Origin: Clostridiales bacterium
GTDB taxonomy: Bacteria; Bacillota; Clostridia; Lachnospirales; JAQSXR01
DNA length: 64,000 nt
Assembly: GCA_029256575.1 (NCBI GenBank)
Contig: JAQSXR010000003.1
Span: forward strand, 1-64,000
Reading direction: 5' to 3'
Below are positions 46,007 through 48,982 of this stretch, piece by piece (the stretch's first letter is position 1; every line of letters begins with the position of its first letter). The notes beneath the pieces were generated by a model. The model was given only the letters and a program-made list of their open reading frames with translations. It was not told the DNA's origin and made no database searches. A program made the position numbers and the translations under genes.

Positions 46007-47092
46007 TTATTTGGTTTTGATATAACCTTCCGCTGTAAGTAATTCAGCAATTAGAACAGCTCCACCTGCAGCACCCCTAACGGTATTGTGTGATAAACCA
46101 ACAAATTTAAAGTCATATATGCTATCTTCACGAAGTCTTCCAGCAGATACGCCCATTCCGTTTTCTAGATCACGGTCAAGTCTTGTTTGTGGTCTATTAT
46201 CTTCTTCAAAGTAAGTGATAAATTGTTTTGGAGCACTTGGAAGGTTAAGAAGTTGTGGTTTACCAACAAAATTTTTCCAACATTCAAGTATTTCTTCCTT
46301 TGAAGGTTTGTTCTCAAATGAAACAAATACAGCAGCCATATGGCCATCAGCGGCAGGAACACGTATACATTGAGTTGTAATTAATGGTGAATCTGCTGCC
46401 ACGATTTCGTCATTTACGACTGAACCCCAAATACGTAAAGGTTCTTGTTCGCTCTTTTCTTCTTCTCCACCAATGTATGGGATTATATTATCAACCATCT
46501 CTGGCCATTCTTTAAAAGTCTTACCTGCTCCAGAGATTGCTTGATAAGTACAAGCTACTACATTTTTTGGCTTAAATTTAAGAAGTGGTGTTAACATTGG
46601 AACATAACTTTGGATTGAGCAGTTTGGCTTAACTGCTATAAATCCGTTTGTAGTACCAAGTCGTTTCTTCTGTGCTTCAATTACTTCTAAGTGACTATCA
46701 TTAATTTCTGGAATAACCATAGGAACATCTTTTGTCCAACGGTGAGCAGAATTATTTGAAACTACAGGAGTTTCAGTTTTTGCATATGCTTCTTCAAGAG
46801 CTTTGATTTCATCTTTTTTCATATCAACAGCACAGAATACAAAGTCTACAGTAGAGCTTACTTCTTCAACTTTAGCTGCATCCATAACGATCATATTTTT
46901 TATATTTTCAGGGATTGGAGTAGACATTTTCCATCTACCTTCAACAGCTTTGTCAAATGTTTGACCAGCTGATCTTGCACTTGCTGCAAGAGTTACTACT
47001 TCAAAGAATGGATGGTTATCAAGTAACGCAATGAAACGTTGACCTACCATACCTGTTGCACCTATAATACCGACTTTCAATTTCTTATCCAT
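46007..47092 (-). CDS. asd: Aspartate-semialdehyde dehydrogenase
   Basis: It reduces aspartyl phosphate to the semialdehyde on the way to lysine, threonine and methionine. The 361-residue protein has the NADP loop VGIIGATGMVGQRFI, SNNSAHRW, the active-site Cys in VKPNCSIQSYVPMLTPLL, and GAGKTFKEWPEM. The form with KPNCSIQ is the archaeal/fungal-like class of Asd. Start ATG 47092 with GAGGTG 6 bases upstream. Single gene with its own terminator. Confidence 0.95.
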   Translation of the reverse strand: MDKKLKVGIIGATGMVGQRFIALLDNHPFFEVVTLAASARSAGQTFDKAVEGRWKMSTPIPENIKNMIVMDAAKVEEVSSTVDFVFCAVDMKKDEIKALEEAYAKTETPVVSNNSAHRWTKDVPMVIPEINDSHLEVIEAQKKRLGTTNGFIAVKPNCSIQSYVPMLTPLLKFKPKNVVACTYQAISGAGKTFKEWPEMVDNIIPYIGGEEEKSEQEPLRIWGSVVNDEIVAADSPLITTQCIRVPAADGHMAAVFVSFENKPSKEEILECWKNFVGKPQLLNLPSAPKQFITYFEEDNRPQTRLDRDLENGMGVSAGRLREDSIYDFKFVGLSHNTVRGAAGGAVLIAELLTAEGYIKTK

Positions 47093-47234: not shown

Positions 47235-47263
47235 TTGACAAATATTGTAACTGGTGATACTAT
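47235..47263 (+). promoter_or_regulatory. Sigma-A promoter for the structured RNA
   Basis: TTGACA (47235-47240), 17 bp, TACTAT (47258-47263). Confidence 0.75.
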
Positions 47264-47269
47264 ATGAAA

Positions 47270-47477
47270 AAATTCAAAGGTAGGTAATCAATATGATTCG
47301 ATTAGCTAATTTCCAAATGAATAGGGACGAAGATAGGAAGCGCTTGTAGCTATGAATTCACATAGGTACAAGCGCTAAAAGCCTTGTACCTATGTTGGAA
47401 ATAGCTGCTTTGAATAATAGATAAGCATAAAGCCACAAAGGTATAATTTTATTATATCCTTGTGGCTTTATTTATTT
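47270..47477 (+). ncRNA. Candidate structured non-coding RNA of about 205 nt
   Basis: Between a good promoter and a terminator lies a non-coding segment with ordered helices. TTCAAAG (47273-47279) pairs with CTTTGAA (47408-47414). Inside that, AGCTAATTTCCAA (47304-47316) pairs with TTGGAAATAGCT (47395-47406). Inside that, AGCGCTTGTA (47339-47348) pairs with TACAAGCGCT (47367-47376). CATAGGTACAAG (47361-47372) can instead pair with CTTGTACCTATG (47383-47394), so two folds compete. The terminator is 47429-47477. Length and closed ends are 6S-RNA-like, but I cannot name the family. It could also be a leader of aspS. Confidence 0.5.
47429..47477 (+). terminator. Terminator of the structured RNA
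   Basis: AAAGCCACAAAGG pairs with CCTTGTGGCTTT and is followed by ATTTATTT. Confidence 0.85.
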
Positions 47478-47556
47478 GAAATAGGAAAGTACGTCTTGCT
47501 CGCAGGAAAACTAGTTCGGCGTAGCTTATTTCTTATACTTTAAGGGGGGTGATCAT

Positions 47557-47619
47557 ATGCGACATATAGATTATGTTGGAATGGATTCAAATTTTAATAA
47601 GTATCGAACGCAATATTGA
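47557..47619 (+). CDS. 20-residue small ORF
   Basis: GGGGGGTGATCAT directly precedes the ATG, an unusually strong ribosome binding site. The product MRHIDYVGMDSNFNKYRTQY is hydrophilic. It lies 37 bases before aspS and could be a small protein or leader peptide. No homologue is recognised. Confidence 0.4.
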   Translation: MRHIDYVGMDSNFNKYRTQY

Positions 47620-47656: not shown

Positions 47657-48982
47657 ATGATTTTAAATAATTCAAATATAGATGTGTCACATATAGAAGC
47701 AGAAGAACTTCAAAATAAGATAGGCAATATAGTTAAGATCCACGGTTCAATATATAAAATTAGGTTAATGAGTGGATTTGCTTTTGTGATATTGAGGACA
47801 AAGAGAGCTTTCGTTCAATGCATTTACAGCAAAGAATATACAAATATTGATATAGATAAAATTATTGAAAATTCAAGTGTGATAATCACTGGATATGTAG
47901 CAGAGGAAATTCGTTCGAAATTGGGCTATGAACTAAGGATAAACGATATAGAAATCTTATCAATTCCGATAGATGCGCCTCCTGTAGTCATCAATAATAA
48001 TGTGATTCCAGCCTCACTTGAGACAATATTAGACTTCAGACCGATTACCATAAGAAATGAACATGAAAGAGCTATTTTTAAATTGCAAGAAGGACTTTGT
48101 AGAGGTATTAGAGAATTTTTGTTCAGCAATCTATTTACTGAAATACATTCACCGAAGATTGTATATGCAGGAGCAGAGGGTGGGGCGAATATTTTTAAGC
48201 TGGATTATTTTGGGAAAGAGGCATATCTTGCACAAAGTCCTCAGTTTTATAAGCAAATGCTGGTAGGAGCGTACGAACGCGTATTTGAGATAGCACCTGT
48301 TTATAGAGCAGAAAAACACGATACATCAAGGCACTTAAATGAATATATAAGCGTTGACTTTGAGATGGGATTTATTGAAAATTTTGCAGATATTATAAGT
48401 ATGGAAACGAACATGTTAAAGTTTGTAATTGAGTTTTTAAAAGAGAAGTATGTAAATGAAATTAAAATTTTGAAGATAGAGCTACCTAATATTGCTGAAA
48501 TACCTTGTATTACTTTTTGTGATGCAAAAGAGTTAGTTCGTAACACATATAATAGAAAAACCAAGGATTTGCATGATTTTGAACCAGAAGAAGAACGACT
48601 ACTTTGCGATATAATAAAAAAGGAATATGGAAGTGATTTTGTTTTTGTAACGCATTACCCTTCATCAAAACGTCCATTTTATGCGATGGACGATAATGAA
48701 AATCCTGAGGTTACATTAAGTTTTGACTTACTTTTCAGAGGAATTGAGATCACTACTGGTGGGCAACGAATTCATGATTATGAGAAACAGGTTGAAAAGA
48801 TGAAAAGAAGAGGTATGAATATCGAATTATTTGAAAGTTATTTGATGATGCATAAATATGGTATGCCTCCACATGGGGGGTTAGGATTGGGATTGGAACG
48901 ATTTACCATGTGTTTATTAAATGAAACTAATGTGAGGTATGCATCGATGTTCCCAAGAGATATGAAAAGATTAACACCATAA
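47657..48982 (+). CDS. aspS: Aspartyl-tRNA synthetase, archaeal-type
   Basis: The 441-residue class II synthetase has an N-terminal OB-fold (IVKIHGSIYKIRLMSGFAFV), motif 2 VYRAEKHDTSRHLNEYI and motif 3 HGGLGLGLERFTMCLL. The sequence GGQRIHDYEKQVEKM is typical of archaeal-type AspRS, which often charges both tRNA-Asp and tRNA-Asn; in that case an amidotransferase completes Asn-tRNA. It lacks the large GAD insertion of the usual bacterial enzyme. Start 47657 has GGAGG 7 bases upstream. Hairpin terminator follows. Confidence 0.9.
   Translation: MILNNSNIDVSHIEAEELQNKIGNIVKIHGSIYKIRLMSGFAFVILRTKRAFVQCIYSKEYTNIDIDKIIENSSVIITGYVAEEIRSKLGYELRINDIEILSIPIDAPPVVINNNVIPASLETILDFRPITIRNEHERAIFKLQEGLCRGIREFLFSNLFTEIHSPKIVYAGAEGGANIFKLDYFGKEAYLAQSPQFYKQMLVGAYERVFEIAPVYRAEKHDTSRHLNEYISVDFEMGFIENFADIISMETNMLKFVIEFLKEKYVNEIKILKIELPNIAEIPCITFCDAKELVRNTYNRKTKDLHDFEPEEERLLCDIIKKEYGSDFVFVTHYPSSKRPFYAMDDNENPEVTLSFDLLFRGIEITTGGQRIHDYEKQVEKMKRRGMNIELFESYLMMHKYGMPPHGGLGLGLERFTMCLLNETNVRYASMFPRDMKRLTP

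Follow-up and report, generated by a model that had tools for sequence, protein, structure and literature searches.

A probable ribosome-mediated transcription attenuator upstream of an auxiliary aspartyl-tRNA synthetase gene in a Clostridiales bacterium

The window is a 64,000-nucleotide stretch from a Clostridiales bacterium (GCA_029256575.1, contig JAQSXR010000003.1, positions 1 to 64,000). It contains an aspartyl-tRNA synthetase (AspRS) gene, aspS2, whose product scores 386.9 bits against TIGR00458 (cut-off 368.4). This type of AspRS carries the annotation aspartate--tRNA(Asn) ligase. The divergent gene at 46007-47092 encodes aspartate-semialdehyde dehydrogenase. The region upstream of aspS2 has two small ORFs and a series of pairing strands, S0 to S5, which are arranged as follows.

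47235..47263, plus strand: promoter, TTGACA, a 17-nt spacer and TACTAT preceded by TG (10/12 matches in a promoter scan)
47276..47285, plus strand: Shine-Dalgarno sequence AAAGGTAGGT for the leader ORF (direct reading of the sequence and relatives)
47293..47349, plus strand: leader ORF MIRLANFQMNRDEDRKRL*, 19 codons (in-frame ATG in every distinct leader, window included)
47320-47334, plus strand: N-R-D-E-D codons within the leader ORF; relatives have Asp in the middle, the window has GAA (Glu)
47320..47332, plus strand: strand S0, the codon run itself; partner S3 (pairing statistics over relatives)
47339..47354, plus strand: strand S1, which includes the leader stop codon; partner S2 (pairing statistics over relatives)
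47361..47376, plus strand: strand S2; partner S1 or S3 (pairing statistics over relatives)
47383..47398, plus strand: strand S3; partner S0, S2 or S4 (pairing statistics and duplex energies)
47305..47316 and 47395-47405, plus strand: outer closing helix, 5' arm (inside the leader ORF) and 3' arm (fold and swap control)
47429..47445, plus strand: strand S4, 5' arm of the intrinsic terminator; antiterminator when paired with S3 (S3:S4 in the window, -12.6 kcal/mol)
47453..47477, plus strand: strand S5, 3' arm of the terminator and T-rich tail (fold and duplex analysis)
47429-47477, plus strand: intrinsic terminator overall
47542..47554, plus strand: extended Shine-Dalgarno sequence AAGGGGGGTGATC for uORF2 (pattern search in relatives)
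47557..47619, plus strand: uORF2 MRHIDYVGMDSNFNKYRTQY*, a second conserved small ORF (conservation in relatives)
47560..47578, plus strand: conserved hairpin right behind the uORF2 start codon, with GAY in the loop (covariation in 5/6 pairs)
47657..48982, plus strand: aspS2, archaeal-type AspRS (TIGR00458, PRK05159), the regulated gene (profile match)

The original prediction, made from the sequence alone, described 47235-47477 as a structured RNA with its own promoter and terminator, in which one strand can pair with either of two partners. The structure is real and conserved. The fold of segment 47267-47477 has an energy of -72.9 kcal/mol and, relative to 200 dinucleotide shuffles, a z of -7.9; for the core (47267-47420) z is -6.1. 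The comparison proposed at the time, a covariance search and alignment with the intergenic regions of relatives, found compensatory changes. The promoter was recovered by the scan, and the terminator is evident in the fold as a hairpin (47429-47469) followed by a T-rich tail, despite a simple terminator scan that listed none here. The switching strand, CATAGGTACAAG(CGCT) at 47361-47376, has two alternative partners, 47339-47354 (with one mismatch) and 47383-47394 (in 12 perfect pairs); it corresponds to S2 with its partners S1 and S3, and each pairing is backed by compensatory changes. The closing helices that were also proposed hold only in part, since the outer helix is strong in the window (-15.5 kcal/mol) but common to some relatives only; its mean is -7.0 kcal/mol in native leaders and -5.65 (sd 0.33) after swapping. 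The unit is the leader of aspS2 and not a self-standing RNA, although termination would leave a short RNA of about 200 nt. The first half of the structure is spanned by an ORF that has a ribosome-binding site; this ORF was absent from the prediction.

Relatives of the element were reached through an AspRS protein search and then through covariance models. DNA similarity of the intergenic region (56 relatives, plasmids and phages) and a search for the exact core in viral contigs gave nothing useful. The protein search kept 80 loci, of which 27 have the whole element upstream; L072 is truncated by a contig end and was left out of the analysis. Covariance model R1 found the element in 4/392 genomes sampled from the order and in 8/391 genomes of the class, the own genome included in both, and in 25/397 genomes of one family, two of which (L141 and L142) were judged to be chance. 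The other weak hits L229-L231, L278 and L280-L285 were also rejected as chance, having no leader with a codon run, and the minus-strand hits of R1 are mirror images, the element being near-palindromic. Among the 24 non-window loci from the order and family, 21 lie before an archaeal-type gene (AspRS2), two before a bacterial-type second AspRS (L126 and L132) and one before neither (L137). Named species with the element include Lachnoclostridium phytofermentans, for which start-site data have been published (PMC5171806), Kineothrix alysoides, Eisenbergiella porci and Lacrimispora xylanisolvens. The window, the 27 loci and the 24 loci give a set of 52 for pairing. Removal of L129 and L133, which lack the anchor used by the script, and of L138, which lacks the S3 pattern, leaves 49, from which 46 distinct leaders were counted for the ORF statistics.

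An ATG lies in frame within 26 codons in all 46 distinct leaders, and a Shine-Dalgarno sequence of at least 4 matching letters accompanies it in 44. In the other two frames such an ATG is found in only 2 and 2 of the 46 leaders, none with a Shine-Dalgarno sequence. The N-termini of the leader peptides differ, and N-R-D-D-D near the end is common to most of them. The three Asp codons are present in 44/46 leaders; the window has D-E-D and L137 has N-N-N. The Asn that precedes them is replaced in several leaders (L047, L048, L059, L139 and L140). The aligned part A1 (28 sequences including the window) starts at the codons AAU AGG GAC GAC GAU. Since S0 must also pair with S3, the Asp codons and the RNA structure are not conserved independently of each other. 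As read from the sequence, the element thus has the short 5' ORF with a ribosome-binding site that is expected of a leader-peptide transcription attenuator.

The pairing statistics for the three upstream helices were computed on 28 sequences. S1:S2 is paired in 94.7% of cells with double-sided changes in 5 pairs, S2:S3 in 96.8% with double-sided changes in 4 pairs (18 cells), and S0:S3 in 93.9% with double-sided changes in 1 pair (8 cells), as against 18 to 58% paired in slid controls. S2:S3 is mutually exclusive with both S1:S2 and S0:S3. The S3:S4 antiterminator has a mean energy of -13.3 kcal/mol over 49 leaders, a set that includes three with mis-picked terminators. Swapping S4 among loci weakens this to -11.7 (sd 0.27, best -12.4 of 20 rounds) and shuffling S4 to -7.6. 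The native pairing is stronger than the swapped one, which indicates that S3 and the terminator arm changed together. The predicted helices therefore include a terminator and an antiterminator that exclude each other, as an attenuator needs. The leader ORF, its codons, the helices, the terminator and the gene behind them are established by sequence and by comparison with relatives.

To model the effect of ribosome position, each transcript was truncated at the terminator loop and folded with no pairing allowed under the ribosome. These are equilibrium folds, which leave kinetics aside, and the footprint size is an assumed one. L035, L130 and L134 were left out because a wrong or weak terminator had been picked, so that 46 leaders were modelled, including the near-identical pairs L040/L122 and L046/L127. 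With the A site on the first Asp codon, more than 5 S3:S4 pairs are expected in 46/46 leaders; the number falls to 32 at the second codon, 20 at the third and 3 at the stop codon, and is 10 without a ribosome. Mean S2:S3 pairs rise from 0.2 (first codon) to 14.2 (stop). In the absence of a ribosome the strands are taken up by S0:S3 (9.4 mean pairs) and S1:S2 (16.8). The modelled switch of the window leader works for the first Asp codon only. A scan over codons found that positions -4 to 0 all yield the antiterminator in 46/46 leaders, and so the Asp codons lie at the downstream edge of the permissive stretch.

The element is very probably a ribosome-mediated (leader-peptide) transcription attenuator, which would turn on an auxiliary AspRS gene when charged tRNA-Asp is short. 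RNA polymerase would start near 47270 and a ribosome would follow on the leader ORF. When charged tRNA-Asp is short, the ribosome would wait at the first Asp codon, covering S0 but not S1; S1:S2 could then pair, the free S3 would capture S4, and with the terminator blocked aspS2 would be transcribed. A ribosome that translates the leader to its stop codon would cover S1, so that S2:S3 and S4:S5 form and transcription ends. If the leader is untranslated, S1:S2 and S0:S3 would form together, S3 would again be occupied and transcription would also end. Since the codons are themselves a switch strand, the predicted device has three states: on when stalled, off when fully translated and off when not translated. 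The stalling of ribosomes there, the order of switching during transcription and the back-up role of the enzyme are inferred.

The attenuator could instead respond to Asn-tRNA or to slow translation in general, and not to Asp specifically. The permissive window is wider than the Asp codons, so that the preceding Asn and AGG (Arg) codons, which lie inside it, could also be sensed. The tRNA(Asn) annotation of this AspRS type and the relatives that have Asn and no Asp codons agree with such a reading. However, it fits poorly with the three Asp codons kept in nearly all leaders and with the replacement of Asn in several, and is considered unlikely.

The aspS2 leader has a second small ORF behind the terminator. 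An extended Shine-Dalgarno sequence and a small ORF past the terminator, the first codons of which form a hairpin with a GAY-containing loop, are found in 30/46 distinct leaders. The pattern is strict; L044, L049 and L059 carry uORF2 yet escape it. The hairpin has double-sided changes in 5/6 pairs among 19 distinct sequences. In 25 genomes a pattern for uORF2 has 13 matches in 13 genomes, each adjoining an aspS2 attenuator and never elsewhere. At a guess, uORF2 may provide a second control, at the level of translation.

The same RNA is also found with other codons and before other genes. Through a weak R1 hit another such leader, MTSLVLSNLRRRDRRKLL*, was traced to a second argS gene. An argS of this type is present in 6 genomes, and 5 have the Arg leader, where argS is a second copy. 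Model R2, for Arg leaders, has matches in 13/397 genomes, three with weak chance-like hits only (L229-L231). The new Arg leaders L224, L225 and L227 are before ArgRS genes, as judged by eye and not by profile. Other Arg leaders (L226, L228 and L232) lie, also by eye, before genes for a membrane protein, a methyltransferase and a BlaI/MecR-like pair. The argS relatives have compensatory changes in S0:S3 and S1:S2; S2:S3 has no double-sided change in five argS leaders. In 13 leaders with other codons or genes, double-sided changes occur in 7 pairs of S1:S2. The ribosome model predicts the same switching for the 11 Arg leaders, though some antiterminator persists at the stop codon in L152, L225 and L227 and, to a smaller extent, in L150 and L228.

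At class level, L257 and L259 likewise carry Asp codons and lie before AspRS2. L254-L256, from three genomes, have Asn codons and no Asp before a bacterial-type AspRS; the protein downstream of L254 is partial and just below the cut-off. These leaders may be in keeping with an AspRS that acts on tRNA-Asn as well. L258 is an Asn-containing leader before a transporter, and L260 has a His run before hisS. The leader of L137 (G429:C176:12571-12651), MYYSVKCFHLNGNNN*, has Asn codons and precedes what by eye is an MTA/SAH nucleosidase-like gene. The leader of L240 (G668:C1:1235775-1235855), MNRSLHCLPIIIIES*, is a weak hit with four Ile codons. The gene behind it encodes an ABC exporter ATPase related to drrA, below the family cut-off. 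A general model, R3, was built without S0 and is therefore free of codon information. It matched 41/200 genomes at E 0.1; of the minority of weak hits that were inspected, 7 were chance. One R3 hit, L292 (G373:C20:73208-73270), lies before hisG-hisD, as identified by eye, and its leader MFCIFNHHHHHGITRL* has five His codons. Folded with a ribosome, L240, L254 and L255 show the expected switch or come close to it, L258 shows part of it, and L292, L257 and L259 show it weakly; the model fails to reproduce the switch for the hisS case L260.

Codons cognate to the regulated gene are thus present in the leaders of AspRS (Asp, two bacterial-type genes included), ArgRS (Arg), hisG (His) and hisS (His) genes. 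Codon identity follows the regulated gene, with exceptions among the Asn leaders (L137 and L254-L256) and the Arg leaders before other genes (L226, L228 and L232). These comparisons suggest one inherited Clostridia chassis, S0-S1-S2-S3-S4, in which the codon run and the matching part of S3 have been swapped to sense Asp, Arg, Asn, His or Ile. The chassis would be a three-state device attached to spare aminoacyl-tRNA synthetase genes, a his operon and exporters, and the Asp version would have uORF2 and its hairpin as an extra control. Taken jointly, these proposals have about an even chance of being correct.

The exchange of codons also bears on whether the short ORF is incidental and the leader is instead bound by a small molecule or by a protein, e.g. 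AspRS. All of the helices would fit such a switch, and the codon run is conserved at the nucleotide level. However, the start codon is in frame with a Shine-Dalgarno sequence in 44/46 leaders, and where argS or his genes lie downstream the codons turn to Arg or His with the RNA chassis unchanged. A protein- or ligand-binding leader is therefore very unlikely, and attenuation by a translating ribosome is preferred.

At gathering score, Rfam 15 has no match in the window or in 16 relatives, nor in 10 loci whose leaders carry Arg, Asn or Ile codons. The trpB motif (RF04312) was rejected at 29.4 bits against a gathering cut-off of 59, as were the sub-threshold matches sRNA_2410, sok and mir-287. 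A T-box riboswitch that reads uncharged tRNA-Asp directly might be expected in this genome, which has 16 T-boxes, one of them directly upstream of another aspS copy, and 3/20 aspS2 loci without the attenuator do have a T-box; yet RF00230 has no match in the window at gathering score, nor among the matches to E 5 around the element, which makes a T-box here highly improbable. A 6S-like (RF00013) or other self-standing small RNA would account for the promoter, the terminator and the long rod-like fold, but is scarcely credible: neither RF00013 nor any other Rfam model matches here at gathering score, relatives keep the element in the same place before AspRS genes, and the genome encodes a 6S RNA of its own elsewhere, at G000:C37:129620-129797 (77.6 bits). 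The resemblance to 6S RNA, drawn in the original prediction from the closed-end layout, is thus abandoned, whereas the resemblance to an attenuator, drawn from the switching arm, agrees with S2 as a strand of a leader-peptide attenuator.

Leader-peptide attenuation is known from trp and his leaders. In the enterobacterial trp/his leaders the stalled ribosome covers strand 1 and the pairing 2:3 is the antiterminator. The aspS2 leader is similar in that it would depend on coupled transcription and translation and would terminate if the leader is fully translated or untranslated. It differs in that the stall would occur before S1, S1:S2 would form and S3:S4 would be the antiterminator, so that one more strand is involved. 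Vecchione and Sello reportedly described, in 2010, ribosome-mediated attenuation of an auxiliary, indolmycin-resistant TrpRS gene in Streptomyces. There too a leader peptide with cognate codons is said to control transcription of a second synthetase gene; the amino acid, phylum and RNA are different, and in the aspS2 leader the codon run is a pairing strand.

Among Firmicutes, His leader peptides control hisS/hisZ paralogs in bacilli (PMC2965389), and his-operon leaders are described in the B. cereus group, Peptostreptococcaceae and Erysipelotrichales (PMC9413887). Both share with the present element an amino-acid-specific leader peptide, a terminator and an antiterminator. They differ in that they concern His only, and the available portions name no Lachnospiraceae, Asp or Arg leaders. 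The uORFC-8-2 motif upstream of cysS in Rhodobacterales (PMC8632094) also has a uORF with cognate codons before a synthetase gene, a terminator and codons in the first stem. However, it concerns Cys in Alphaproteobacteria and has a two-stem model, and the portion consulted mentions no common chassis for several amino acids. In Shewanella, an aspS leader has been catalogued as a 'tRNA synthetase leader' (PMC2659441). Neither Rfam nor a search of the non-subscription literature on Asp or Arg leaders, attenuated synthetase genes and attenuators of Lachnospiraceae turned up the Asp/Arg leader family, in which the codon run is a switching strand and a second small ORF is conserved; the family appears to be new.

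The genome has three AspRS genes, at G000:C44 (downstream of a gene read as hisS), at G000:C38 and in the window, and one AsnRS. In the 25 genomes with the element, a bacterial-type AspRS scores above the cut-off in 24 (absent from G414, which is 86% complete) and an AsnRS is present in all 25. The attenuated AspRS copy may be a back-up, perhaps against natural inhibitors by analogy with Streptomyces TrpRS1. Firmicutes mostly use T-boxes for synthetase genes, and the 25 genomes have 10 to 23 T-box matches each. Genomes with T-boxes would use ribosome-read attenuators for extra AspRS and ArgRS copies. If the proposed re-programmed chassis is real, gut bacteria could respond to failure of the main synthetase by turning on a spare one that is perhaps insensitive to inhibitors. 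The aspS2 leader would be a testable case of an inducible back-up synthetase. Codon, RNA strand and regulated gene have changed in concert, which makes the family a clean system as well. The AspRS gene at G000:C38:27738-29804 is directly behind a T-box, so that two types of sensor for AspRS are found in one genome.
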